Positions 3,221-47,100 of a stretch of 64,000 nucleotides of DNA are shown piece by piece. Under the pieces are notes generated by a model that had not been told where the DNA came from, ran no database searches, and saw only the letters and a program-made list of their open reading frames with translations. How positions within the stretch are numbered: the stretch's first letter is position 1; each line of letters opens with the position of its first letter. The DNA comes from Massilia sp. R2A-15 (GTDB lineage: Bacteria; Pseudomonadota; Gammaproteobacteria; Burkholderiales; Burkholderiaceae_D): NCBI RefSeq assembly GCF_030704305.1, contig NZ_CP131935.1, positions 1,178,001 through 1,242,000 of the forward strand, written 5' to 3'. The position numbers and the translations under genes were made by a program.

Positions 3221-4753
3221 CTAGCATGGCAGCGGCACCTTCGCCAGCTTCTTCCAGCGCTTGGTGGCCAGCTTGCCCTCGTCCGGAATGCGCGCTGCAA
3301 GCATGCCTTCGGCAAATCCCACTTCCAGCGCGAGCGCCGGTTCGCTCTCCGATATTTCGGTCAGCAGGCGAGTGGCGACCGTGATGTCGTTCAGCAGTCC
3401 CAGTTCATCCTGCAGGCCGGTCAGCGCCTTGACGTAGGGCCGCACGCGCCGCTGGGGAAACAGCGATGAAAAAAATTCGGCGGCATAGCGCGTCTTCTTG
3501 GCCGCGATGCGCACCCGATGCCGTTGCTCGGGCGTGGCCGTCGACAGCGCTCGCGCGCGCCGGCGCAGGCGCCGCTCGTCGCGCTTTAATATCTGACGGG
3601 CGAATTTGCGCACCGGCTGGTCCAACACGCCGGCGGCGGCCTGCGTCGCCCGCGCATCGTCGCGCCATCCTTTTGCCTCCAACCAGCGTGTGATGCCGAG
3701 CATGAGGCGGGTGTAGCGGACCGATCCCGCAGCCGCCGCGGCGCTGGCGTGATGCTGCTTCGCCTTGTCGGCCGCGGCCCGCGCCACGCCCGCGATGCGC
3801 GCCGGCTCGGGCAGGACGCGCGCCATCGACGGCAGCGTGGTCTCGGCCAGCACATCCCAGTCGCGCGCCGAACCGAGTTCGTCGGCCAGCCAGTCCAGCT
3901 CCAGCTGCAAGGCTTCGGGCAGGCGCAGTACATCCTTGAACATCCCCAGCGCCGAGCGCAGGCGCCGCATTCCGACCCGCATCTGGTGCAGGCTTTCGAC
4001 GTCGCGCACCTTGGCCACGTTGTCCGCGTTGTCCTGAATGTGCGCCAGGCAGTTCGACACGATCTGCTGGAACGCCTGGTCGAGCGGCATGGCGCGCTCC
4101 AGCGTCAGCGGCTTGGCCTTGACCGCTACGCGCGGCTGCGGCGCCAGCAGCGCGTAGCCACGGTCGGCCTTGCTCAGGTTAGCGATGCGGAAAGGGACAT
4201 CCTTGAGCAGGTCCAGCGCCAGGTCGAACAGCTGCGCCGGATCGCCCGCCTTCAGTTCCAGTTCGAGTTCGCTGATCGGCGCCTTTTCGGTGCCGTGTTC
4301 GAGCGTGCCCACGTCGAGCGCGCATTCGACGTGTACGCCTTTTTTCAGGTGCAGGTCCCACACGGTGCGCTTGATGTGCGTGCTGAACACGGGAGCCAGC
4401 CGCTGTTCGAGCGAGTCGGCGCCGAGCGCGTCGCGCCGGATCTGCTTTTCGTCGACCAGCTCGCGCAGGCGCGCCAGGTCCGGTGTCGGCCGATCGACCG
4501 GCGACTCCCACTCGCCGCGCTGGTGCAGGCCGCCGTTGGCGCCTGCGCCGTTCTTCATGGTCTGGATCCAGCGCTTGCCGACTTCGCGCACGCGAAGCCC
4601 GACGTCATGCCGGCGCAGCCGCAGCCGGGGCGTATCGAAATAGGTATCGGCCAAAGTTTCTTCGCGCGGCTTGGCGCCGCCATGGAACAAGTGGTGGTGC
4701 AGCAGTTTTTCCCTGGCCTTGGCGTCGAGCTGAAGCTTGAGTTCGATTTCCAT
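3221..4753 (-). CDS. CYTH and CHAD domain protein, probable inorganic triphosphatase
   Basis: Two-domain protein of 510 aa. The N-terminal CYTH domain (about 1-205) opens with the ExExK signature in MEIELKLQLD. In the E. coli homologue YgiF this domain hydrolyses inorganic triphosphate with a divalent metal. The C-terminal CHAD domain (about 220-500) is a helical domain with conserved His and Arg (LHQMRVGMRRLRSAL) that binds polyphosphate. GGAGG sits eight bases before the ATG at 4753, which argues against a longer in-frame start at 4816. It is divergent from pstS, with a Pho box between them, so both may respond to phosphate limitation. Confidence 0.9.
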   Translation of the reverse strand: MEIELKLQLDAKAREKLLHHHLFHGGAKPREETLADTYFDTPRLRLRRHDVGLRVREVGKRWIQTMKNGAGANGGLHQRGEWESPVDRPTPDLARLRELVDEKQIRRDALGADSLEQRLAPVFSTHIKRTVWDLHLKKGVHVECALDVGTLEHGTEKAPISELELELKAGDPAQLFDLALDLLKDVPFRIANLSKADRGYALLAPQPRVAVKAKPLTLERAMPLDQAFQQIVSNCLAHIQDNADNVAKVRDVESLHQMRVGMRRLRSALGMFKDVLRLPEALQLELDWLADELGSARDWDVLAETTLPSMARVLPEPARIAGVARAAADKAKQHHASAAAAAGSVRYTRLMLGITRWLEAKGWRDDARATQAAAGVLDQPVRKFARQILKRDERRLRRRARALSTATPEQRHRVRIAAKKTRYAAEFFSSLFPQRRVRPYVKALTGLQDELGLLNDITVATRLLTEISESEPALALEVGFAEGMLAARIPDEGKLATKRWKKLAKVPLPC

Positions 4754-4803
4754 CGCTACCGCCTCCGTGAAGTTGATCGCGTAAAGACAAAGTATGCGCC
4801 GGC

Positions 4804-4832
4804 GCGTCAGGCACACGTCACACCAGCGTCAT
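4804..4832. promoter_or_regulatory. Candidate Pho box with three 11-bp-spaced half-sites
   Basis: Three direct repeats, GCGTCAG (4804-4810), ACGTCAC (4815-4821) and GCGTCAT (4826-4832), lie exactly 11 bp apart, the spacing of PhoB half-sites. A -10-like TAGACT at 4843-4848 follows 10 bp later, as in PhoB-activated promoters where the box replaces the -35. The ATG of pstS is 49 bp downstream of the box. Confidence 0.65.
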
Positions 4833-4880
4833 ATTCGGCTCGTAGACTGCACGCATCCAAACAACAGGGAAGACCTGAAA

Positions 4881-5924
4881 ATGAAAATCAACAAGATGCT
4901 GACTTCAATGGTTCTGGGCGCACTGGCAACGATGGCCGCGACCAGCGCAATGGCCGCCGACATGACCGGCGCCGGCGCCACGTTCCCGTATCCGATCTAC
5001 GCCAAGTGGGCCGAGTCGTACAAGGCTGCCACCGGCAACGGCCTGAATTACCAATCGATCGGCTCGGGCGCAGGCATCAAGCAGATCAAGGCGAAGACGG
5101 TCGACTTCGGCGCGTCCGACATGCCATTGAAAGCGGAAGAACTCGACGCCGAAGGCCTGATGCAGTTCCCGGCCATCATGGGCGGCGTGGTCGCGGTGGT
5201 CAACGTCGACGGCGTGGCGCCGGGCCAGCTTAAGCTGACTGGTCCCGTCCTCGCCGACATCTACCTGGGCAAGATCACCAAGTGGAACGCGCCTGAAATC
5301 GCCGCGCTGAACCCTGGCGTGAAGCTGCCGGCCGACGACATCACCGTGGTGCATCGCGCAGACAGCTCCGGCACCTCGTTCCTGTTCACCGACTACCTGT
5401 CGAAGACCAATGCCGACTTCAAGAGCAAGATTGGCGCCGGCACCGCGGTGAAGTGGGTGATCGGCGTGGGCGGCAAGGGCAACGAAGGCGTCGCCGCCAA
5501 CGTCCAGCGCATCAAGGGTTCGATCGGCTACGTCGAGTGGGCCTACGCCAAAAAGAACAAGATGTCGCACACCCAGCTGAAGAACAAGGACGGCGTGTTC
5601 CTGCAGCCTGACGACGACAACTTCAAGGCCGCCGCTGCCGGCGCCGAGTGGACCAAGACGCCCGGCTTCGCCGTGGTGCTGACCGACCAGGCGGGCAAGG
5701 CGAGCTGGCCGATCACCGGCGTGTCGTACATCCTGATGCACAAGGCGCAGGCCGACGCTGCCAAGGGCAAGGAAGTGCTGAAGTTCTTCGACTGGGCCTA
5801 CAAGCACGGCGGCCAGGCCGCGACCGAACTTGACTACGTGCCGATGCCCGCATCGGTGGTCTCGCTGGTAGAAGGCGCCTGGAAAGTGCAACTGAAGGAC
5901 ACTGCCGGCAAAGCGATCTACTAA
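4881..5924 (+). CDS. pstS: Phosphate ABC transporter substrate-binding protein
   Basis: Periplasmic phosphate receptor of the high-affinity Pst importer, 347 aa, the usual length. A signal peptide ends at SAMA before ADMTGAGATFPYPIYAKW. Family phosphate-contact motifs are visible: TGAGATFPYP near the N-terminus, GSGAGI with the following DFGASD, and HRADSSGTSF in the middle. GGGAAG precedes the ATG at 4881. A Pho box lies just upstream. No pstC, pstA or pstB follows, so the rest of the transporter must be elsewhere. This is an orphan pstS sharing a regulatory region with the CYTH-CHAD gene. Confidence 0.95.
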   Translation: MKINKMLTSMVLGALATMAATSAMAADMTGAGATFPYPIYAKWAESYKAATGNGLNYQSIGSGAGIKQIKAKTVDFGASDMPLKAEELDAEGLMQFPAIMGGVVAVVNVDGVAPGQLKLTGPVLADIYLGKITKWNAPEIAALNPGVKLPADDITVVHRADSSGTSFLFTDYLSKTNADFKSKIGAGTAVKWVIGVGGKGNEGVAANVQRIKGSIGYVEWAYAKKNKMSHTQLKNKDGVFLQPDDDNFKAAAAGAEWTKTPGFAVVLTDQAGKASWPITGVSYILMHKAQADAAKGKEVLKFFDWAYKHGGQAATELDYVPMPASVVSLVEGAWKVQLKDTAGKAIY

Positions 5925-10447: not shown

Positions 10448-10526
10448 GGGGTCAGGTCCGCAGGACCAGACCCCGGAATGCATGCGTCGCCGTCAAAGCT
10501 GGGGTCTGGTCCTGCGGACCTGCCCC
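10448..10526. repeat. Family A inverted pair
   Basis: Form 1 at 10448-10474 faces form 2 at 10501-10526, so the two copies can pair into one long stem. It lies between the M4 protease and the M20 peptidase. Confidence 0.85.
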
Positions 10527-25822: not shown

Positions 25823-26482
25823 TTAGATGTGTTTAGGCGACAGCGCGGCCAGGCCGGTGCGTGACAATATGAGTATTTCGTCTGCCTGTTCAGCGGCGGC
25901 GCGCGAGTGCGTCACCATGATGGCGCTGGCGCCGTTGGCCTTGATTTCGGCGCGCAGGAGCGCCAGTACGCTGGCCGCGGTTTCGGGGTCCAGATTGCCG
26001 GTGGGCTCGTCTGCCAGCACCAGCGCGGGGCGGTGCGCCAGCGCGCGCGCGATGGCCACGCGCTGCATTTCCCCGCCCGACAACTGGCGCGGAAAATCGG
26101 CGCCGCGGCCGGCCAGTCCGACCGCCGCCAGCATCTGGCCGGCGCGGTCGGCGGGCATCCGGTTTAACAGAAGCGGCAGCGCCACGTTCTGTTCCAGCGT
26201 CAGGTGCGGCAGCACGTGGAAGGCCTGGAAGATGAATCCCATGCGCGCGCGGCGCAGGCGCGTGGCGGCGTCGTCGTCCAGCTTCGAGATCGGCCGGCCA
26301 TCGACGATCACATCGCCTTCGTCCAGGACATCGAGGCCGGCGATCAGGTTCAGCAAGGTCGATTTTCCGACCCCCGATTCGCCCATGATGGCGACGAACT
26401 CGCCGGCCTTGAAGTGGTGCGAGACGCCTTCGAGCACGCGCCGCCCGCCGTAGGACTTGGAGATGGCGCGCAGTTCGAGCAT
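25823..26482 (-). CDS. ABC transporter ATPase (LolD/MacB-type), last gene of the importer operon
   Basis: Nucleotide-binding subunit of 219 aa: Walker A GESGVGKST, signature LSGGEMQRVAIARAL, Walker B LVLADEPTGNLDPE, and switch His in VTHSRAAAE. The sequence is closest to the LolD/MacB/FtsE class of exporter ATPases, not to PhnC. It starts five bases after the second permease stops, so it belongs to the five-gene operon. This gives the operon two different ATPases, which is unusual. Either they form a heterodimer, or this one serves another permease. Confidence 0.88.
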   Translation of the reverse strand: MLELRAISKSYGGRRVLEGVSHHFKAGEFVAIMGESGVGKSTLLNLIAGLDVLDEGDVIVDGRPISKLDDDAATRLRRARMGFIFQAFHVLPHLTLEQNVALPLLLNRMPADRAGQMLAAVGLAGRGADFPRQLSGGEMQRVAIARALAHRPALVLADEPTGNLDPETAASVLALLRAEIKANGASAIMVTHSRAAAEQADEILILSRTGLAALSPKHI

Positions 26483-26487
26483 GGCGG

Positions 26488-27270
26488 TCAGCGCGTGAGC
26501 AAGCGGCGCAGCGCGAAGCTGGCCGCGTCGACCATCGCCACCAGCAGCAGCATGCAGATGATGACGGTGGCCGCGTTCTGCATCTGGAACAGCGACAGGT
26601 GGTACTTGAGCATCTGGCCGAGTCCACCGGCGCCGACCACGCCCAGCACGGCTGCGGCGCGGATGTTGTTCTCCCAGCGGTACAGGGTGTACGAGAGCAT
26701 CTGCGGCAGCGCCTGCGGCAAGGTCGCATAGAAGAAGGCCGCCATCGGCGCCGCGCCGTTGGTCAGCAGCGTCTGGTGCGGCAGCGGTTCGGCGTTTTCC
26801 AGCGCGTCGGCGAACAGCCGTCCGAGCACGCCGCTGGTGTGCGCGGCCAGCGCCAGGGTGCCGGCGAGCGGCCCGAGGCCGGCGGCCACCAGCAGCAGCG
26901 ACGCCCACACCAGTTCCGGGATCGAGCGCAGGATGTTGAGGATGGTGCGGGTGGCGCCGCGCGGCACGCGGCCGAAGCGGCCCGCCGCCGGCAAGGCCAG
27001 CGCCAGGCCGCCGATCACCGCGAGCAGGGTGCCGAGCGCCGACATCGACAAGGTCTCGGCGGTCGCGTTCAGGCACTTCATCAGGAACGGCGCGGCCAGT
27101 TCGGGCGGCGCGAAGCCCCTCAGGAATTCGGCGGTGGTGGAGGCCGCCTCGGCGCTGAAGAACGCCGCGAACTGCAGCGGCAGCGACGCGAAGCTGGCGG
27201 CGACCAGCGCGGCCAGTGCCAGCATCAGCAGCCAGGTCGACAGCCGCCGGCGCGGGGGGGCGGGCATCAT
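26488..27270 (-). CDS. ABC permease, PhnE family, second copy
   Basis: Inner-membrane permease of 260 aa with about six helices. The EAA-type loop is present late in the protein (AAVLGVVGAGGLGQML), and RSIPELVWASLLLV is the usual PhnE signature. It starts at an ATG overlapping the stop of the first permease by four bases (ATGA), with AGGAGG upstream. It is homologous to the first permease, so the two probably form a heterodimeric channel. Confidence 0.9.
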   Translation of the reverse strand: MMPAPPRRRLSTWLLMLALAALVAASFASLPLQFAAFFSAEAASTTAEFLRGFAPPELAAPFLMKCLNATAETLSMSALGTLLAVIGGLALALPAAGRFGRVPRGATRTILNILRSIPELVWASLLLVAAGLGPLAGTLALAAHTSGVLGRLFADALENAEPLPHQTLLTNGAAPMAAFFYATLPQALPQMLSYTLYRWENNIRAAAVLGVVGAGGLGQMLKYHLSLFQMQNAATVIICMLLLVAMVDAASFALRRLLTR

Positions 27271-28097
27271 CCGAGCCTCCTGCGCAGCAGCTTCGACACC
27301 ACGTCGGCCAGCGCCACCAGCAGCACGAACACGATCAGCATGGTCGAGACCTCGCCGCCGGCCATCATGCGCGTCGATTCGTCCATGCGCTGGCCAAGGC
27401 CGCCGGCGCCCACAAAACCCATCACGGCCGATCCGCGGATCGCGCACTCCCAGCGGTACACGGTGTACGACACCAGTTCGGAGGCGGACGACGGCAGCGC
27501 GCCGTAGAACAGGGCGGGCAAGCGCCCGGCGCCGTTGGCCAGCAGGATGTCGGTGGCGTGGGCGTCGGACGACTCGAGGATTTCGGCATACACCTTGCCC
27601 AGCATGCCGCAGTAGGTGAGCGCGATGGCCAGCACGCCGGCGGTGGGGCCCAGGCCAACGACGCGCACGAACAGCAGCGCCCATACCAGTTCCGGCACGC
27701 TGCGCAGCAGCACCAGGATCCAGCGCACGCACTGGCGCACCAGCTTCGACGACAGGCGCATGCGGCCGGTGCCAAGACGCGAGATCGACAGCCGCTCGGT
27801 GACGACCAGCGTGGCGGGAATGGCGCCCAGCAGCGCGAGGGTCAGGCCGGCGGTGGCGATGGCGACGGTCTGCCACGTTTCGCGCAGCACCATCTGGAGG
27901 AATTCGAGCGAGTGGGCCGGATGCAGGAAGCCTTCCAGGAAGCGGCCCGCCGCCACCAGGCTTTGCATGTCGAACAGCAGCCAGGGCTTGAATTCGCTGA
28001 ACACCAGCGCGGGCCACAGCAGCGCCAGGCAGACGATGGTGGCGGTGACGCGGGTGCGCCAGGCCGGATCGGCCGGCATGCGTGAGTCGGTCGTCAT
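27267..28097 (-). CDS. ABC permease, PhnE family, first copy
   Basis: Inner-membrane permease of 276 aa. The conserved parts are LLRSVPELVWALLFV and the EAA loop GSAVMGFVGAGGLGQRM, with six predicted helices. It begins four bases after the upstream ATPase and overlaps the next permease, so translation is likely coupled. The family includes phosphonate, phosphite and putative selenate importers. Confidence 0.92.
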   Translation of the reverse strand: MTTDSRMPADPAWRTRVTATIVCLALLWPALVFSEFKPWLLFDMQSLVAAGRFLEGFLHPAHSLEFLQMVLRETWQTVAIATAGLTLALLGAIPATLVVTERLSISRLGTGRMRLSSKLVRQCVRWILVLLRSVPELVWALLFVRVVGLGPTAGVLAIALTYCGMLGKVYAEILESSDAHATDILLANGAGRLPALFYGALPSSASELVSYTVYRWECAIRGSAVMGFVGAGGLGQRMDESTRMMAGGEVSTMLIVFVLLVALADVVSKLLRRRLG

Positions 28098-28101
28098 GGA
28101 T

Positions 28102-28917
28102 TCAGAAGCAGGCGCCGACGGCGATGCGGTCTGGGGATTCGTGAAACACCGGCGGGTGCGGCGTCATCGATTCGTTCTGATACAGCGCATCGATCATCGC
28201 GTCGGTCACCTGTTCGCGCGGCGCGTCGAACACGATGCGGCCTTCGCGCAAGCCGACGATGCGGGCGAAATGGGCGCGCGCGATGTCCACCTGGTGCAGG
28301 CTGCAGATCAGCGTGGCGTTGCGAGTCGCGGCCTCCTGCTGCAGCGTCGACAGCGTCAGTTGCGACAGCGCCGGGTCGAGCGCCGATAGCGGCTCGTCGA
28401 CCAGGAAGGCGTGCGCCGACGACAGCAGCAGGCGCGCCAGGCCGCAGCGCTGGCGCTCGCCGCCCGACAGCCGGTCCACCCGCGCATACAGCTTGTCGCC
28501 CAGGCCGAAGCGCTGCAGCGCGCCCCAGGCGGCTTCGGGATCGGCCGGTTTCACCAGCGAGGCGAGGGCCTGCCACAAGGACCACTGCGGCAGGCGCGCG
28601 GCCAACACCGCGGTCACCACGCGCTGGCGCGGCGGCAGCGGCGGCGTCTGCGGCGCCAGGCACAGGCGCGCGCGCAGGCGATGGCGCTGTTCGTCGGTCA
28701 GCGTCCACGGATCCTGCCCGAACGCCTCGAACGTGCCGCCGGCAGGCCGCTGCGCGCAGGCCAGGGTGGCCAGCAAGGTCGTCTTGCCGGCGCCCGACGG
28801 TCCGATCACGGCCAGCTGCTCGCCCTGCGCAATCCGCAGGTCGATGTCGTGCAGCGCGGCGGCGCCAGTTCTGGCCCCTAGATGGCGCACTGTCAGCTTG
28901 TCGAGCAGGTAGGTCAT
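28102..28917 (-). CDS. ABC importer ATPase, PhnC family
   Basis: ATP-binding subunit of 271 aa: Walker A GPSGAGKTT, signature LSGGERQRCGLARLL, Walker B AFLVDEPLSALDPA, and switch His in LICSLHQVDIAR. SLHQVD is the PhnC-family form of the H-loop. It lies five bases after the binding-protein gene and four before the first permease. It should power uptake of the anion bound by the periplasmic partner. Confidence 0.92.
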   Translation of the reverse strand: MTYLLDKLTVRHLGARTGAAALHDIDLRIAQGEQLAVIGPSGAGKTTLLATLACAQRPAGGTFEAFGQDPWTLTDEQRHRLRARLCLAPQTPPLPPRQRVVTAVLAARLPQWSLWQALASLVKPADPEAAWGALQRFGLGDKLYARVDRLSGGERQRCGLARLLLSSAHAFLVDEPLSALDPALSQLTLSTLQQEAATRNATLICSLHQVDIARAHFARIVGLREGRIVFDAPREQVTDAMIDALYQNESMTPHPPVFHESPDRIAVGACF

Positions 28918-28922
28918 CGCGA

Positions 28923-29810
28923 TTACTTCAGCAGGCCCGCGTTGTGGGCGGCCGCCTCGATCGCGGTGTAGTTCTCGGCCTTGGTCGGAATGAACTTGCT
29001 GGCGCGCTGCAGCTCGAGGATCTCCTTGCCTTCAGGCGTGGACTTGTCCAGCGCGAGGAAGGCGTCGGTGATCTTTTTCTTCAGCGCCGGGTTCATGTCC
29101 GAGCGCACGCTCCAGTTGTAGTCGTAGTAGCCGGGCGTGGTGTAGAACACGCGCACCACCGACGGATCGACCTTGTGCTCGGCGACCAGCTTTTCCCATA
29201 CCGAGATGTTCAGCGCGCCCGCATCGACCTTGCCGCCGGCAACCGACGCCACCGTCGCGTCGTGCGCGCCAGAGAACGCGATGCGTTTCAGGTCGGTGTC
29301 CGGATTGATCTTCGCGGCCAGCAGGTAGGAGCGCGGCATCAGGTGGCCCGAGGTGGACGACTCGGAGCCGAACGACAGCGTCTTGCCCTTCAGGTCTTCG
29401 AGCTTGTTGATGTCCTTGTGGGTGGTGACGAACACCGAGCGGAATTTTTCGTCTTCGGCGCGCTGCACCAGCGGCGTGACCATGCCCTTGCTGCGCACGT
29501 TGGCCTGCACGAAGGTGAAGCCGCCGAACCAGACCATGTCGATCTTCTTGTTGATCAGGCCTTCGACCGACGCCGCGTAATCCGTCACCGGGGTGAACTC
29601 GACCTTCAGGCCCGTCTGCTTGGCCAGGTAGTCTCCGAGCGGCTTGAACTTGCGCTGCAGTTCGGTCGGGTTCTCGTCCGGGATCGCCGACACGCGCAGC
29701 ACACCGGGCGTATTTTGCGCGGCGGCGTGCGTGGATGCGAACATCAGGCCGGCGGCGGCGGTCGCGCCCAGGATCGTCTTCAGGGTGCGGATTGCGGAAA
29801 ATTGGCTCAT
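28923..29810 (-). CDS. PhnD-like substrate-binding protein, putative selenate/selenite importer
   Basis: Periplasmic receptor of 295 aa with a signal peptide (cut near HAAAQ). The motifs LRVSAIPDENPTELQRKFKP, FTPVTDYAASVEGL, GGFTFVQA and SSTSGHLMPRSYLL are those I associate with the putative selenate ABC transporter binding protein group (TIGR04553-like). True phosphonate PhnD differs in this pocket. It heads a five-gene operon and is divergent from egtD-egtB. Selenium uptake would fit the sen genes 14 kb away. Ligand identity is inference; phosphonate or phosphite cannot be excluded. Confidence 0.82.
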   Translation of the reverse strand: MSQFSAIRTLKTILGATAAAGLMFASTHAAAQNTPGVLRVSAIPDENPTELQRKFKPLGDYLAKQTGLKVEFTPVTDYAASVEGLINKKIDMVWFGGFTFVQANVRSKGMVTPLVQRAEDEKFRSVFVTTHKDINKLEDLKGKTLSFGSESSTSGHLMPRSYLLAAKINPDTDLKRIAFSGAHDATVASVAGGKVDAGALNISVWEKLVAEHKVDPSVVRVFYTTPGYYDYNWSVRSDMNPALKKKITDAFLALDKSTPEGKEILELQRASKFIPTKAENYTAIEAAAHNAGLLK

Positions 29811-29891
29811 AAGCCCTTTCTGTCGGGAAGTTGAATGGAGTCAGCCGCCGTGGTGCGATCCGATTCGAATAGGCATGAAGCTGACAATTTG

Positions 29892-29905
29892 GATATTCAG
29901 ATATC
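29892..29905. promoter_or_regulatory. Small inverted repeat between importer operon and egtD
   Basis: GATAT (29892-29896) and ATATC (29901-29905), four bases apart, lie in the 165-bp AT-richer divergent gap. It could be an operator shared by both units, but the arms are short. Confidence 0.25.
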
Positions 29906-29975
29906 ATAACAAAAACAGTGACATCCTATTCAGCCTGCACGATTACTGCGCCGCTGTGGTGCCAATGAAAAGCCT

Positions 29976-30941
29976 ATGTCGACGTCTTCACCGACCGAAT
30001 CGCATCACCCTCACGCCGGCGCCGCCGTGCTGGCCGAACTCGATGCCGGTCTGCGCGCCAGCCATCCGTGCATCTCGCCCAAGTTCCTGTACGACGCGCT
30101 TGGGTCGCGCCTGTTCGAGGCGATCTGCGAACTGCCCGAGTACTATCCGACCCGCACCGAGGCGTCCATCTTTGCGCGCCACGGCGCCGCGATGGCGCGC
30201 GAGGTCGGCCCCGGCCGCACCCTGATCGACCTTGGCGCCGGCAACTGCGCCAAGGCCGCCAGCCTGTTCCCGCTGCTGCATCCGGCCCAGTACGTCGCCA
30301 TCGACATCTCGGCCGACTTCGTGCGCGAGTCGCTAGAACGCCTGCACCAGCGGTTTCCCCACATCGAAATGACCGCGCTGGGGCTCGATTTTTCGAACGC
30401 GCTCGATCTGCCTGGTGTGGTGCGGCGCGAGAAGCGCCTGTTCTTCTACCCGGGTTCGTCGATCGGCAATTTCACGCCCGGCCAGGCGGGCGCCTTCCTG
30501 CGCCGCGCGCGTGCCCAGTGCGACGACGACGGCGCATTGCTGATCGGGATCGACCTGGTGAAGGACAGCGCCACGCTGGACGCCGCCTACGACGATGCGC
30601 TCGGCGTCACGGCCGCCTTCAACCTCAATATCCTGCGCCACGTGAACCACCTGGCCGGCGCCGACTTCGACGTGCGCCAGTGGCGCCACAGCGGCCGGTA
30701 CAACGCGCTTGAAAGCCGCATCGAAATGCACCTCGAAGCGCGCGAGGACCTTACCGTGAACTGGCGCGGCGGCCAGCGCGCCTTCCGCGCCGGCGCGCGG
30801 ATCCACACCGAGAACAGCTATAAATACCGGCAAAGCGCAGCGGTCGGGCTGCTGGAACAGGCGGGCTTCCAGGCCACCGGCGTCTGGACCGACCCGGCCG
30901 GCTGGTTCGCCGTCATCCACGCGCGCGCGATCGCGCCCTGA
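29976..30941 (+). CDS. egtD: L-histidine N-alpha-methyltransferase EgtD
   Basis: Adds three methyl groups from SAM to the amino group of histidine to make hercynine, the shared precursor of ergothioneine and selenoneine. 321 aa, the usual size. Motifs: SPKFLYDALGSRLFEAICELPEYYPTR at the N-terminus, LIDLGAGNCAKAASL (SAM loop), FYPGSSIGNF, and LNILRHVNHLAGADFD with RIEMHLEA in the histidine-binding C-terminal domain. It is followed three bases later by egtB. Start ATG at 29976 has only a weak ribosome site. Confidence 0.96.
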   Translation: MSTSSPTESHHPHAGAAVLAELDAGLRASHPCISPKFLYDALGSRLFEAICELPEYYPTRTEASIFARHGAAMAREVGPGRTLIDLGAGNCAKAASLFPLLHPAQYVAIDISADFVRESLERLHQRFPHIEMTALGLDFSNALDLPGVVRREKRLFFYPGSSIGNFTPGQAGAFLRRARAQCDDDGALLIGIDLVKDSATLDAAYDDALGVTAAFNLNILRHVNHLAGADFDVRQWRHSGRYNALESRIEMHLEAREDLTVNWRGGQRAFRAGARIHTENSYKYRQSAAVGLLEQAGFQATGVWTDPAGWFAVIHARAIAP

Positions 30942-30944
30942 GCC

Positions 30945-32129
30945 ATGAAACCGTCCGACGATTTCACCTGCCGCCGCCGCTTCGAGAGCGTGCGCAAGCG
31001 ATCGGAGGCGCTGGCAGCACCGCTGTCGGACGAAGACTGCGGTGCCCAGTCGATGCCGGACGCCAGTCCCGTCAAGTGGCACCTGGCGCACACCACCTGG
31101 TTCTTCGAGACCTTCATCCTCGAACAAATGGAGGAGCGCTTCCAGCCCTTCCATCCCACGTTCCGCTTCCTGTTCAACTCCTACTACAACGGCATCGGCG
31201 ACCGCCATCCGCGCGCCAAGCGGGGCTTGCTGACGCGGCCGTCGATGGCCGAAGTGCGCGCCTACCGCGCCGACGTGGACGAACGGATCGGACGCCTGCT
31301 GGCGGCGCAGGCCGACAACCCGCAGCTGGCGGCGCTGATCGAGCTCGGGCTGCAGCACGAACAGCAGCACCAGGAGCTGATCCTCACCGACGTGCAGCAC
31401 CTGCTGGCGCAAAATGCGCTCAATCCCGCCTACACCTTGGCGGCGCCGGCGCCGGCCGAGGCGACGCCGCTGCGATTCCTCGACTTCGCCGGCGGCGTCG
31501 CGCAGATCGGCCACGCGGGCGACGGCTTCTGCTTCGACAATGAGCTGCCGCGCCATCGCCAGTTCGTCGAGCCCTTCGCGCTCGCCGACCGGCTGGTGAC
31601 CAATGGCGAATACCTCGCCTTCATTGACGCCGGCGGCTACCGCGATGCGGCGCTGTGGCTGTCCGAAGGCTGGGACCAGGTCAATGCGCTGGCGCTGGCG
31701 CAGCCGATGTACTGGCAGCGCGACGAAGCAGGGCGCTGGTGCGAGTTCACCTTGCACGGCCTGCGCCCGCTCGACCTCGCGCGGCCGGTGACCAGCGTGT
31801 CGCTGTTCGAGGCCGACGCCTACGCCAACTGGCGCGGCGCGCGGCTGCCGACCGAGTTCGAATGGGAGCTGGCCGAAGGCCAGGGCGAAGCGCTGCGCCA
31901 GATGTTCGGCCATTGCTGGCAGTGGACCAGCAGCAGCTACGCACCGTACCCGGGCTACGCGACGGCGCCTGGCGCGCTGGGCGAATACAATGGCAAGTTC
32001 ATGCTCAACCAGTATGTGCTGCGCGGTTCCTCGAGCGCGACGCCTGCGGGCCACTCGCGCGCGACCTACCGCAACTTCTTCCCCGCCGGCGCACGCTGGC
32101 AATTCACCGGAATCAGGCTCGCAAAATAA
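30945..32129 (+). CDS. egtB: Hercynine oxygenase EgtB (sulfoxide synthase)
   Basis: Nonheme iron enzyme that joins a thiol (cysteine or gamma-glutamylcysteine) to hercynine with O2. 394 aa. The DinB-like N-terminal domain carries the iron ligands in WHLAHTTWFFETF and LQHEQQHQELILTD (HxxxHxE). The C-terminal formylglycine-generating-enzyme fold is seen in RLPTEFEWELA and QYVLRGSSSATP. Together with egtD it forms the core of ergothioneine synthesis. No egtA, egtC or egtE lies in the window. It is clearly distinct from the SenA paralogue at 45.9 kb. Confidence 0.95.
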   Translation: MKPSDDFTCRRRFESVRKRSEALAAPLSDEDCGAQSMPDASPVKWHLAHTTWFFETFILEQMEERFQPFHPTFRFLFNSYYNGIGDRHPRAKRGLLTRPSMAEVRAYRADVDERIGRLLAAQADNPQLAALIELGLQHEQQHQELILTDVQHLLAQNALNPAYTLAAPAPAEATPLRFLDFAGGVAQIGHAGDGFCFDNELPRHRQFVEPFALADRLVTNGEYLAFIDAGGYRDAALWLSEGWDQVNALALAQPMYWQRDEAGRWCEFTLHGLRPLDLARPVTSVSLFEADAYANWRGARLPTEFEWELAEGQGEALRQMFGHCWQWTSSSYAPYPGYATAPGALGEYNGKFMLNQYVLRGSSSATPAGHSRATYRNFFPAGARWQFTGIRLAK

Positions 32130-42558: not shown

Positions 42559-43566
42559 TCAGCCGAAGTAGTTCAGGCCCAGCGCGCCCTTGACTTCGGA
42601 CAGCGTCTGCGCCGCCGCTTCGCGCGCTTTCTCGGTGCCGCGGCGCAGCACGTTGAGCATCTCGCCGCGGTCCCTGGCCAGCCGCTCGCGTTCGGCGCGG
42701 ATCGGCGCGATTGCTTCCTGCAGGCGCTCGTTGAGCATCTTCTTCAGCACGCCGTCGCCCAGCCCGCCGCGGCGGTAGTGCGCCTTCAGCTCGTCCACCT
42801 TCGCCGTATCCGGCTCGAACGCGTCGAGGAAGGAGAACACCACGTTGCCTTCGACCTGGCCCGGATCGTCCACGCGCAGGTGGTTCGGGTCGGTGTACAT
42901 CATCTTGACCGCCTTGCTGATTTCATCCGGCGTGGCACCCAGCGCGATCGAGTTCCCCAGCGACTTGCTCATCTTGGCCTTGCCGTCGATGCCGGGCAGG
43001 CGAGTCACGGCCGACAGCACGGCCTTGCACTCGACCAGCACCTGGCGATCCACCGTGCTGTTGAATTTGCGGACCAGTTCATTGGTTTGCTCGATCATCG
43101 GCAGCTGGTCGTCGCCGACCGGCACCATGGTCGCCTTGAACGCGGTGATGTCGGCCGCCTGGCTGACCGGGTAGACCAGGAAGCCGGCCGGGATGTCGCG
43201 CTCGAAGCCGCGGTGGACGATCTCCTGCTTGATGGTCGGGTTGCGCTCCAGGCGCGCGACGGTCACGAGGTTCATCAGGTACTGGGTCAGCTCGGCCAGC
43301 TCGATCACCTGCGACTGGATGAAGATCGTCGATTTTTCCGGATCGATGCCGGCCGCGAGGTAGTCGAGCGCGACTTCGATCACGTTGTCGGTGACCTTCT
43401 GGTGCTTGCCGACGTTGTCGGTCATGGCCTGGGCGTCGGCCAGCAGCAGGAACTGCTTCGCTTCGTGCTGCAGCTGGACGCGCGCGCGCAGCGAGCCGAG
43501 GTAGTGGCCGAGGTGCAGCGGGCCGGTGGTGCGGTCGCCGGTAAGGATGATCGGTTGCGTGGACAT
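42559..43566 (-). CDS. trpS: Tryptophanyl-tRNA synthetase
   Basis: Class I aminoacyl-tRNA synthetase, 335 aa. TGDRTTGPLHLGHYLGSL holds the HIGH motif (HLGH), and KAKMSKSLGN the KMSKS motif. The Rossmann fold residues for Trp recognition lie between. AGGAG precedes the ATG at 43564-43566. A longer frame to 43638 is only the attenuator region. Upstream lies a leader peptide with two adjacent Trp codons and a terminator, so its expression should rise when charged tRNA-Trp falls. Confidence 0.96.
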   Translation of the reverse strand: MSTQPIILTGDRTTGPLHLGHYLGSLRARVQLQHEAKQFLLLADAQAMTDNVGKHQKVTDNVIEVALDYLAAGIDPEKSTIFIQSQVIELAELTQYLMNLVTVARLERNPTIKQEIVHRGFERDIPAGFLVYPVSQAADITAFKATMVPVGDDQLPMIEQTNELVRKFNSTVDRQVLVECKAVLSAVTRLPGIDGKAKMSKSLGNSIALGATPDEISKAVKMMYTDPNHLRVDDPGQVEGNVVFSFLDAFEPDTAKVDELKAHYRRGGLGDGVLKKMLNERLQEAIAPIRAERERLARDRGEMLNVLRRGTEKAREAAAQTLSEVKGALGLNYFG

Positions 43567-43603
43567 CGAAACTCCTGTGGTTGCGATGTCGCCGGAGGGC
43601 TGC

Positions 43604-43635
43604 AGAAACAACAATGCCGCCTGGTCCGGCGGCAT
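43604..43635 (-). terminator. Attenuator terminator of trpS
   Basis: Minus strand ATGCCGCC and GGCGGCAT pair perfectly (8 bp, loop GGACCA), followed by TGTTGTTT. The same 5' arm (GCCGCC) can pair instead with the earlier GGCGGC (about 43662-43669), giving an antiterminator. Confidence 0.75.
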
Positions 43636-43674
43636 CACGTGATTAATCGTGCGTGTGAAAACGGGCCGCCAAGG

Positions 43675-43723: not shown

Positions 43724-43751
43724 AGTATAGCATGCTAAAAACGGGTGTCGT
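43724..43751 (-). promoter_or_regulatory. Promoter of the trpS leader transcript
   Basis: Minus strand ACGACA (43751-43746), 16-bp spacer, extended -10 TGC-TATACT (43729-43724). The -35 lies inside the right arm of a minimal family B palindrome (43747-43768). Confidence 0.6.
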
Positions 43752-43768
43752 TCCTGCGCAGGAACGAC
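43747..43768. repeat. Minimal family B palindrome
   Basis: GTCGTTCCTG directly followed by its inverted arm CAGGAACGAC after two bases: a 22-bp version of family B that has lost its interior. It sits between selD and the trpS leader. Confidence 0.65.
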
Positions 43769-43770
43769 GT

Positions 43771-44823
43771 TCAGGAAACGGTGACTTTCGGCGCGCCCGC
43801 GTGCATCTTGCCGATCACCGCGGCGTGAGCAAATCCATCTTTCGCGAACAGCGCCAGCACTTCGTCCACGCTGCCCGCATCGCACGCCACCAGCAAGCCG
43901 CCCGAGGTCTGCGGATCGGTCAGCAAGGCCTGCTGCGCCGGCGTGATGCCCGCTGCCAGCTCGACTTCCTTGCCGTACGCATCCCAGTTGCGGCCCGATG
44001 CGCCGGTGAAGAAGCCGTCGTGCGCCAGCTGCTCGACACCCGGCAGAAGCGGAATGTTCGCCATGTCCAGGTGCGCCGTCAGCTTGGCGCCGCGCGCCAG
44101 TTCCAGCAGGTGGCCCAGCAGGCCAAAGCCGGTGACGTCGGTCAGCGCGTGCACGCCTTCCATCTCGGCCAGCGCCTTGCCCGGCTTGTTCAACTTGGTG
44201 GTGTTCTCGATCATGGCCGCGTAGCCTTCTGCGCCCAGCACGTCTTTTTTCAGCGCCGCCGACAGCACGCCCACGCCGAGCGGCTTGCCCAGGATGAGGA
44301 CATCGCCGTCCTTCGAGTCGGCATTGCGCTTGACCTTCGACGGGTGCACGAGGCCGAGCACGACCAGGCCGTAGATCGGCTCGACCGAGTCGATGGTGTG
44401 GCCGCCGGCGATCGGGATGCCGGCTTCGGCGCAAATCGATTCGCCGCCGCGGATCACCTGGCCGATGGTCTCGAGCGGCAGTTTGTTGACCGGCATGCCG
44501 ACCAGTGCGAGCGCCATGATCGGCGTGCCGCCCATTGCGTACACGTCGGAGATGGCGTTGGTGGCGGCGATGCGGCCGAAATCGAACGGGTCGTCGACGA
44601 TCGGCATGAAGAAGTCGGTGGTGGCGATCAGCGCCTGCTCGTCGTTGAGTTTATAGACCGCGGCGTCGTCGGCCGTCTCGATGCCGACCATCAGTTCCTT
44701 CGGCACCGGGAAGCCGGTCGAATTCTTGAGGATCTCGGACAGCACGCCGGGCGCAATCTTGCAGCCGCAGCCGCCGCCGTGCGAGAAGGAGGTGAGTTTG
44801 ATTGGCTGGTCGCTAGTGCTCAT
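43771..44823 (-). CDS. selD: Selenophosphate synthase (SelD / SenC role)
   Basis: Makes selenophosphate from selenide and ATP. 350 aa. The active-site segment is SHGGGCGCKIAP, with Cys (not selenocysteine) at the catalytic position and Lys after it. The glycine-rich ATP loop and GGHTIDSVEPIYG with ADSKDGD follow as in SelD. It lies 16 bases downstream of the senB-like gene, so it is likely in one operon. It therefore probably plays the SenC role in selenoneine synthesis. It may also serve selenoprotein or seleno-tRNA synthesis; no selA, selB or selU is in the window. Confidence 0.93.
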   Translation of the reverse strand: MSTSDQPIKLTSFSHGGGCGCKIAPGVLSEILKNSTGFPVPKELMVGIETADDAAVYKLNDEQALIATTDFFMPIVDDPFDFGRIAATNAISDVYAMGGTPIMALALVGMPVNKLPLETIGQVIRGGESICAEAGIPIAGGHTIDSVEPIYGLVVLGLVHPSKVKRNADSKDGDVLILGKPLGVGVLSAALKKDVLGAEGYAAMIENTTKLNKPGKALAEMEGVHALTDVTGFGLLGHLLELARGAKLTAHLDMANIPLLPGVEQLAHDGFFTGASGRNWDAYGKEVELAAGITPAQQALLTDPQTSGGLLVACDAGSVDEVLALFAKDGFAHAAVIGKMHAGAPKVTVS

Positions 44824-44839
44824 GAGTGTTCCATTCCTG

Positions 44840-45814
44840 TTATTGGTGCGTATCGAGCAGATTATCCACTAAACCGAGCACCGCCGCTTGCTCCGCGGCC
44901 GGCGCAAACAAGGCGGCGCGCGCGTCGCATTGGTCGCGCAGGCGCCGGTAAAAGGCCGGATCGTCGATGCTGCGGTCGATCAGCGCGGCCAGCGCGGCGG
45001 CGTCGCCAGGCGCGAAATAGCCTTCGTAATCGTCGCCCAGCATGCCGCGGTTGCCGCTGATGTCGGAGGCCAGCACCGGCACGCCCGACGTCACCGCTTC
45101 GATGATGACGTTGGCGCCGCCTTCCATGCGCGAGGCGATCACCATCGCGTGGCTGCGCTTGAGGCGCTGGCGCGTGGCGGCGTGCGCCAGGTTGCCGAGC
45201 CAGCGGTAGCGCGGATTGGACGCCTGCGCCGCTTCGGCCGCCGCGCCCAATGCGGGATCGAGCGCGCCGCCGATGTGGATCATGCGCGCCTTCGGATTGC
45301 GCACCAGCGCGGCCGCTGCGATGAAGGTGCGTGGATCCTTTTCCTCGCGCAGGTGGCCGATCATCGAAATCGAATAGGCGCGGCGCGATGAGGGATGCGG
45401 GTAGGGCGCAAGGGCCGGCGCGGACTGGTAGATGACGCGCGCCTTGCCGCGCATGGCCGGCGGCAGCAGCGCCAGTCCGGCGTCCTGCAGCAGCACCAGC
45501 GCAGTCGCGCTCTTGAGTGATTGCTGCGCGGAGCGGTCGGTGGCGATGTCGCGATACAGGTCGGTGCCGGTCAGCACCAGCGCGGTGGGCCGGTCCGGAT
45601 GCGCTTGCGCGAACGCGGCCAGTGAGGAGGCCGAGCGGCGCGCATGCAGCGCGATCAGGAGGTCGGGCGCGGGCAGGGCGGCGCTCCATTCGAGCACGAT
45701 GTCGACATCGTAGCGCTCGCGCAGGAACAGGGCCCAGCGGCGCGCGGTCTGCCAGTTGCCGTTGTTTTGCTGCGCCCGGGCAGGGCTCACGATCGTCACG
45801 CGTTTCGATGCCAC
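44840..45814 (-). CDS. senB: Selenosugar synthase SenB-like glycosyltransferase
   Basis: GT-B type glycosyltransferase of 324 aa. The start [26 protein letters not shown] and the C-terminal donor site ([32 protein letters not shown]) match the group placed in the selenoneine operon. There SenB joins selenophosphate to a UDP-sugar (UDP-GlcNAc or UDP-glucose) to form a selenosugar. The start is GTG at 45812-45814 with AAGGA upstream. It is first in the senB-selD operon and divergent from senA. Assignment rests on motif and context, not a search. Confidence 0.85.
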
Positions 45815-45833
45815 CGGGTTCCTTAAAGAAGAT

Positions 45834-45860
45834 GGGGTCAGGTCCGCGGGACCAGACCCC
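45834..45860. repeat. Family A palindrome, form 1
   Basis: Single copy in the 89-bp divergent gap between senB and senA. It separates the two start regions and could block readthrough both ways. Confidence 0.8.
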
Positions 45861-45891
45861 GGCCTTTCGGCGCCCCCGCGGGAAAAATCGC

Positions 45892-45897
45892 TACAAT
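45892..45897 (+). promoter_or_regulatory. Candidate -10 box of senA
   Basis: TACAAT lies six bases before the senA ATG, so the mRNA may be leaderless. No convincing -35 box is seen at the right distance. Confidence 0.4.
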
Positions 45898-45903
45898 CTG
45901 GTC

Positions 45904-47100
45904 ATGAGTTCAATCAATGCGTCATTCCGGCACGCCAGGCCGCAGCAACTGGCCGAAGCGCTCCAGGCTGCGCGAAATTATACGCTGAGCCTGTTCGACT
46001 GCCTGGCCGCCGCCGGCATGGACACGCTGTCGCGCGTGCCGCACATCGCCACCATCAATCCGCCGCTGTGGGAGCTTGGCCACATCGCCTGGTTCGCCGA
46101 GTGGTTCATCCTGCGCGAGGCGATGTCCACCCATCCCGCGGCGGCGGAGCGCCATTCGCTGCTGATGCGCGGCGACGACTGGTTCGATTCGAAGACTGTG
46201 CCGCACCGCACGCGCTGGACGCTGGACCTGCCGTCGCCGGGCGGGGTGAAGACCTACTGCCACGAGGTGCTCGACCGCGTGCTCGACAAGCTCACGCGCG
46301 AAGCGGCTACCGACGCCGCGCTGTATCCGTACCGGCTGGCGCTGGCGCACGAGGACATGCACGGCGAGGCCTTGCTGTACACGATGCAGACGCTGGGCAT
46401 CCCGGCGCCGGCGCATCTGACGCATGACGAGGCGGCCAGCTCGCCGTCGTCCAGCATCCGCTACCCGGGCGGGACCATCGTGCTGGGCGGCGCGCAGGAG
46501 GGCGGCTTCGTGTTCGACAACGAAAAGCCGCCAATGCAGATCTACGTGGCGCCGTTCGAGATCGATGCGGGGCTGGTGACCAACGCCCAGTACGCGGAGT
46601 TCATCGCCGACGGCGGCTACCAGGACGGCCGCTTCTGGAGCAAGGCGGGCAGCGCGTGGCTGATGCAGCAGGAGCGCTCGTCGCCGCGCTACTGGCAGCG
46701 CGACGGCGACCAGTGGCGCACGATGCGCTTCGGGCGGCTGTCGACGCTGGCGCCGTCCGAACCGGTGCGGCACGTGTCGCTGTTCGAGGCGCAGGCGTAC
46801 TGCATGTGGGCCGGCCGGCGCCTGCCGACCGAAGCGGAATGGGAGTTCGCGGCCATCTCCGGGCAGCCCGGATTCCGCTGGGGCCAGCTGTGGGAGTGGA
46901 CGGCGTCGCCGTTCGAGCCGCACCCGGGCTTCACTCCCGACCGCTACGGCGAATATTCCGAGCCGTGGTTCATGACCCACCAGGTGCTGCGCGGCGCCTC
47001 GTTCGCCACCCCGTCGCGCTTCGGATCGGCGCGTTTCCGCAACTTCTACCTGCCCGATCGCGACGACATGTTTGCCGGCCTCAGAACCTGTGCTTATTAA
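45904..47100 (+). CDS. senA: Selenoneine synthase SenA (EgtB paralogue)
   Basis: Nonheme iron enzyme that couples a selenosugar to hercynine to make selenoneine. 398 aa. DinB-like N-terminal domain with iron ligands in [13 protein letters not shown] and [14 protein letters not shown] (HxxxHxE). The C-terminal FGE-type fold is seen in [27 protein letters not shown] and [15 protein letters not shown]. It is more distant from EgtB than a duplicate would be, and it lies beside senB and selD, which supports SenA over EgtB. Hercynine would come from EgtD at 30 kb. Confidence 0.87.

Follow-up and report, generated by a model that had tools for sequence, protein, structure and literature searches.

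Selenium supply of a predicted selenoneine pathway

Does the group of selenium-related genes found in Massilia sp. R2A-15 encode a complete route to selenoneine, and which genes would supply it with selenium and hercynine? The group lies at 43771-47100 of a 64,000-nucleotide stretch (positions 1,178,001 to 1,242,000 of contig NZ_CP131935.1; hereafter the window) of a 5.03-Mb genome assembled as one contig. It resembles the sen cluster (senA, senB and senC) of Variovorax paradoxus, known from PMC9814287, PMC10891094 and PMC10702425. As judged from sequence, the window very probably holds an intact selenoneine gene set together with egtD, egtB and a putative ATP-binding cassette (ABC) importer, as in the route proposed below. 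We further consider it reasonably probable that this importer, a TIGR04553 system at 26488-29810, supplies the selenophosphate synthase SelD, and thereby SenB and the tRNA selenouridine synthase SelU, and that importer, egtD/egtB and senABC form one conserved selenium-to-selenoneine island in the family. The sen cluster itself is of an already-known type; the interesting parts are the link to the importer and a group of related SenA proteins without iron ligands. The genes concerned are the following (scores in bits, curated cut-offs in brackets):

43771-44823, minus strand: senC/selD, selenophosphate synthase, 350 amino acids; NF002098 545 (299), TIGR00476 436 (125)
44840-45814, minus strand: senB, selenosugar synthase, 324 amino acids; TIGR04348 427 (300)
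45904-47100, plus strand: senA, selenoneine synthase, 398 amino acids, divergent from senB; NF041186 539 (420)
29976-30941, plus strand: egtD, histidine N-alpha-methyltransferase (hercynine supply); TIGR03438 373 (290.9)
30945-32129, plus strand: egtB, ergothioneine sulfoxide synthase; TIGR03440 545 (360), and 379 with the SenA model, under its cut-off of 420
28923-29810, minus strand: PhnD-like substrate-binding protein of the putative selenate ABC importer; TIGR04553 404 (250)
28102-28917, minus strand: PhnC-like ATPase of the putative importer; TIGR02315 189, under the cut-off of 266; same gene order in relatives
27267-28097, minus strand: PhnE-like permease 1 of the putative importer; TIGR01097 188, under the cut-off of 217
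26488-27270, minus strand: PhnE-like permease 2 of the putative importer; TIGR01097 238 (217) over 26497-27270

Identity of the sen genes

The preliminary description of this DNA had read SenA, SenB and SenC functions from motifs. This assignment stands, because SenA, SenB and SelD all exceed the curated cut-offs of their profiles, SenA falls in the SenA clade and SenB belongs to the SenB family and not to an unrelated glycosyltransferase family. The genes senB and senC/selD are separated by 16 bp in the same operon, with senA on the opposite strand, and SenC/SelD carries the Cys-containing motif GGCGCK. The open reading frame predicted for senA opens at 45517, much further upstream than the ATG at 45904; counted from this ATG, the match to the SenA model sets in at residue 9. 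The nearest solved chains are SenA 8ryz/8k5i for SenA (309 bits) and the Se-glycosyltransferase SenB 8k5u (303 bits) and 8jjq (287 bits) for SenB. The HxxxHxE iron motif noticed earlier is present in SenA as HEDMHGE, which provides His149 and His153, and the third ligand, His60, is also intact.

In SenB, 12 of 13 checked sites, namely those linked to binding or catalysis in PMC10702425 and PMC10891094, are identical to 8jjq (among them K158, E231 and the phosphate and nucleotide contacts). The exception, which counts against the assignment, is the nucleotide-contacting R22, which is Q in the window protein and also in 53 of 75 aligned rows. An altered function on account of R22Q, or of EGGANV in place of EGGAHV, was rejected, both being majority states (53/75 and 65/75 aligned rows). 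The window SenB is 79% identical to that of a congener (G001) and 52% identical, over the best segment, to that of V. paradoxus ISL-79. The Massilia and V. paradoxus systems have all three enzymes in common, with conservation of the active-site residues that were checked, and in ISL-79 (L094), as here, senA is divergent from senB-senC.

SenA and EgtB have a common fold and a three-histidine iron site, and the EgtB model TIGR03440 gives the window SenA 311 bits; SenA might thus be a paralogue of EgtB whose product is ergothioneine or some other sulfur compound, its neighbours being incidental. We hold this to be highly improbable. The 311 bits lie under the EgtB cut-off of 360 and SenA exceeds its own, and the window encodes a separate EgtB, the member of that family at 30945-32129, whose nearest solved chains are EgtB 8qf6/6qki/6o6l (419 bits). 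Where this EgtB reads DRHPRAKRG, the window SenA reads VPHRTRW. An IQ-TREE phylogeny of 70 rows (from which the rows of the twice-fetched loci L087 and L099 and one truncated EgtB had been removed) separated SenA (46 rows) from EgtB (23 rows) by one branch (support 99/89), with the window SenA on the SenA side together with solved SenA and the second homologue of the window within the EgtB side, so that SenA lies outside the EgtB clade. Solved EgtB 4x8b formed a long branch of unsure placement; solved OvsA and one relative of it fell on the SenA side. OvsA selenoxide synthase (8ux5, 8u41), whose product we take to be ovoselenol, is a related selenium-handling enzyme that matches the window SenA with 213 bits; the window protein is closer to solved SenA and groups with it.

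A putative selenium importer beside egtD and egtB

The egtD and egtB genes and the putative selenium importer were absent from the preliminary description. The importer operon (26488-29810) is divergent from egtD-egtB and forms with it one arm (26488-32129), which lies about 12 kb from the other, senC-senB-senA (43771-47100); some 12-17 kb separate the egt and importer genes from senC. Directly downstream of the importer stands another ABC ATPase gene (25823-26482, minus strand), and a similar-looking gene (F19, by eye) was seen near egtD in three other genomes.

The link between importer and selenium genes was followed in relatives. Over the cut-offs, a set of 60 genomes contained SenB in 27, the importer in 25 and both in 17; by hand tally, the importer adjoins egtD in 12 of the 17 genomes with SenB and in none of the 8 without (Fisher p=0.0016), and in 5 of these 8 it lies within 3 kb of selD. 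Among 294 genomes of the family, SenB was found in 97 (96 over cut-off), the importer in 155 (154 over cut-off) and both in 68, in 50 of which importer and senB are at most 25 kb apart. The neighbours vary. Between aligned ends, 81-83 bp separate the binding-protein gene from senA in two Variovorax genomes, whose importer genes come after senA, and 73 bp separate it from senC in Noviherbaspirillum humi; here the importer stands beside egtD, about 14 kb from senC. In three Massilia loci (L079, L081, L082), senB-senC, egtB, egtD and the importer occur together, but the 10 kb upstream of senB contain no senA; in other genomes of the family an intact senA lies at a distance from senB.

Several observations weigh against an island that feeds selenium into selenoneine. 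Unrelated genes (leuA, an antiporter, trpS) separate the two arms in the window. In the 60-genome set, 7 of the 25 importer genes are near neither egtD nor selD (hand tally); of the 68 family genomes with both, 14 have importer and senB on separate contigs or at a place that is unlisted, and another 4 have them at a distance of 28-58 kb. Since 87 of the 155 family genomes that bear the importer have no SenB match, it does not belong to selenoneine exclusively. Conserved linkage reflects in part shared ancestry, and because the genomes counted are related, Fisher values make the evidence look stronger than it is. Selenium as the substrate comes from the name of a model of the 'hypoth_equivalog' type (TIGR04553, 'putative selenate ABC transporter substrate-binding protein'), and the functions of all window genes are assigned from homology, residues and neighbourhood. 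The solved relatives of the binding protein, finally, are phosphonate- and phosphite-binding proteins and ArrX/Aio-type proteins; the latter presumably bind arsenic oxyanions. These relatives fit an oxyanion importer and do not single out selenium.

Such relatives, together with the PhnC- and PhnE-like subunits, make it possible, if rather unlikely, that the importer's cargo is phosphite, phosphonate or some other oxyanion, and that the linkage is inherited gene order only. This explanation is weakened by the variety of partners (senA in Variovorax, senC in Noviherbaspirillum, selD in 5 of the 8 importer-bearing genomes without SenB), since one ancestral order would hardly yield such varied selenium-related neighbours. 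We favour the importer as the probable selenium supply of SelD. Two reviews (PMC9312934, PMC13188914) state that prokaryotes have yielded no identified high-affinity system specific for selenium transport, and PMC5029168 places an unspecified ABC-transporter ATPase near an orphan selD. Among the papers listed by literature searches, none tests TIGR04553, binding data included, and none deals with selenoneine in Massilia or Janthinobacterium, although such papers may exist.

SenA proteins without iron ligands in genomes that lack SenB

The iron ligands were checked in 163 fetched SenA-family proteins and the window SenA, and SenA and SenB were compared over the same 294 genomes. At least one ligand was lost in 40 of 43 SenA-family proteins from genomes without a SenB match, and in none of the 110 SenA rows from SenB-bearing genomes (102 different proteins, the window SenA included). 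These counts leave aside eight second copies, an OvsA-like protein and two loci present in duplicate; the absence of SenB was judged at E <= 1e-60 or 1e-40 in assemblies of which some are incomplete (G012 is 80% complete). All eight second copies are without full ligands, the three are complete in all 12 SenA that simply lie at a distance from SenB, and a linked SenA of genome G162, outside the original count, has them intact. The exceptions (L137, L139, L140), from genomes without SenB, have the full set of iron histidines and selD as a neighbour. Because most SenA proteins of SenB-less family genomes are without the iron site, SenA is tied to SenB, the selenosugar enzyme, which argues once more against an ergothioneine-type role of the window SenA.

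The 48 ligand-less proteins (L068, L070, L072, L073, L128-L136, L138, L141-L166 and L179-L186), from SenB-less genomes or second copies, are intact. His153 is kept in none of them and 89 of 101 near-invariant sites are kept; their median identity to the window SenA is 64%, compared to 65% in the ligand-bearing proteins (n=99). The median pairwise ratio of nonsynonymous to synonymous substitution rates (dN/dS) was 0.13-0.15 in ligand-less proteins versus 0.17-0.23 in three ligand-bearing groups, a rough estimate, as dS reached about 1.2 in one group; the values indicate purifying selection, and the ligand-less SenA are therefore selected for something. In a FastTree phylogeny, ligand loss takes five changes, at least three of them on well-supported branches. 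Supported independent pairs of SenB absence and iron-site loss were concordant in 3 cases in most of 200 pairings (otherwise in 2, with one undecided), too few for significance.

The ligand-less genes recur in three contexts. In one genus, 23 of 24 loci have them following a PhoR-like kinase gene (by eye; the 24th has selD between); in other genera they diverge from selD; and four loci have them near egtD-egtB. To judge from their ligands, the proteins would bind no iron, and we can only guess that they bind hercynine-type compounds or act in regulation with them. Among the papers listed by literature searches, none deals with ligand-less SenA, although one may exist. The NF041186 cut-off is passed by 47 of the 48 (the exception, L068, scores 413 bits); since the NCBI model would name these 47 selenoneine synthase, a genome should be called a selenoneine producer only after a check of the iron ligands.

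Two loci are recorded here in addition. In L068 (genome G005), an N-acylglucosamine 2-epimerase gene (4593-5876; PF07221, 342 bits) stands between selD and the ligand-less senA, the expected place of senB. L075 (genome G048) encodes a SenB (4127-5131, 444 bits), with no SenA over the cut-off (best match 169 bits, in an 878-aa frame) and no egtD at the threshold used.

Proposed route and use of SelD

The enzyme steps and chemistry of the family are described in PMC10891094, PMC9814287 and PMC10702425. By homology, the window genes suggest the following route. The TIGR04553 importer would bring in a selenium oxyanion, which the cell would reduce to selenide; SenC/SelD would convert selenide to selenophosphate, from which, together with a nucleotide sugar, SenB would form a selenosugar. 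EgtD would make hercynine, the iron enzyme SenA would couple the selenosugar to it, and elimination and reduction of the SenA product would give selenoneine, the predicted product of the sen cluster. EgtB would draw on the same hercynine for ergothioneine.

A single SelD match was obtained in the genome at E <= 1e-40, so a second, pathway-dedicated SelD was rejected. One SelU over the cut-off is encoded about 800 kb from the sen SelD, and the best matches to SelB in the genome (182 bits) remain under the cut-off of 242. Since the SelD of the sen operon is the only one found and SelU is present elsewhere, this SelD presumably serves both selenoneine and tRNA selenouridine, one enzyme feeding SenB and SelU. 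The same two facts might suggest that SelD belongs to tRNA selenouridine synthesis and stands beside senB fortuitously. This is very unlikely given the distance of SelU and the arrangement of senB and senC on the same strand in 31 of 33 distinct other loci where senC was found; the two roles are moreover compatible, and one SelD for two products is the likelier case.

Gene order, trpS and the intergenic palindrome

Around the sen genes, the following features were recorded:

42559-43638, minus strand: trpS, beside senC
43747-43768, minus strand: perfect 22-nt palindrome with a T run that resembles a terminator, downstream of senC; occurs once in the window
45834-45860, plus strand: 27-nt palindrome resembling repetitive extragenic palindromic (REP) elements, between the divergent starts of senB and senA
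45892-45897, plus strand: TACAAT, a -10-like hexamer 6 nt before the ATG of senA

The senB-selD operon with divergent senA was described correctly at the outset, and the view that this layout is unusual was not borne out: with the window and two duplicate loci excluded, senA is divergent from senB in 37 of 38 other distinct loci where both genes are close (the exception is L069), including both Variovorax loci, among them V. paradoxus. A divergent senA as an uncommon layout was accordingly rejected.

The cluster does lie against trpS, as had been stated. Membership of trpS in the cluster is not supported, as a terminator-like site follows senC and a promoter-like site precedes trpS, and from these weak scans trpS looks separate from the sen operon. 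By consensus scan, the region has 2 terminator-like sites, not enriched over a shuffle mean of 2.8, and 2 promoter-like sites, somewhat enriched over 0.4 in shuffles. The adjacency of trpS and senC, found in three of four congeners (L040, L043, L045; 2.6 kb apart in G002), has no functional meaning that we could see. The palindrome at 43747-43768 was considered as a second repeat and rejected, being single in the window and fitting a terminator. The hexamer TACAAT is present in 9 of 23 other senA-senB gaps listed, among them all 4 of the same genus, in which it directly precedes the start of senA; the consensus scan called no promoter at this site.

The 27-nt palindrome, said earlier to split senA off, is present between the two genes and is not specific to the locus. 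The window contains 15 copies at <=3 mismatches (0.00 expected), with copies at 10448, 12001, 12088, 33164, 33279, 37767, 45834, 48529, 50413, 50468 and 55323, several as inverted pairs. A pattern with three free positions matched 473 copies genome-wide (250 and 223 per strand; none for the reversed-pattern control) and none in 59 relatives, of which four are congeners, sen-bearing ones included. Its position between both divergent starts, close to the -10-like hexamer of senA, might suggest a bidirectional operator of senA and senBC. This is scarcely credible for a sequence with so many genomic copies that is missing from all relatives searched, and also from the senA-senB gaps of the four congeners, which measure 36-87 bp between aligned ends versus 92 bp here; the operator was rejected on these grounds. 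The palindrome is a lineage-specific dispersed repeat that landed beside the senA promoter region, without a sen-specific role, and its presence in the senA-senB gap is a difference from the V. paradoxus cluster. It resembles REP elements in being a short palindrome in hundreds of copies with several inverted pairs; as mover of the family there are candidates only, the two Y1_Tnp genes of the genome (G000:C1:4060168 and 4219615), and genes of this kind also occur in all four congeners that lack the repeat.

Significance

A Massilia-type bacterium thus appears to carry an intact selenoneine set alongside genes for hercynine supply and a putative importer of selenium. The relatives without SenB provide a natural control for SenA, in that the ligands are mostly lost and the protein is kept under purifying selection. 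With the importer confined to one operon, the question of a selenium-specific transporter in bacteria would become testable by a single operon deletion.

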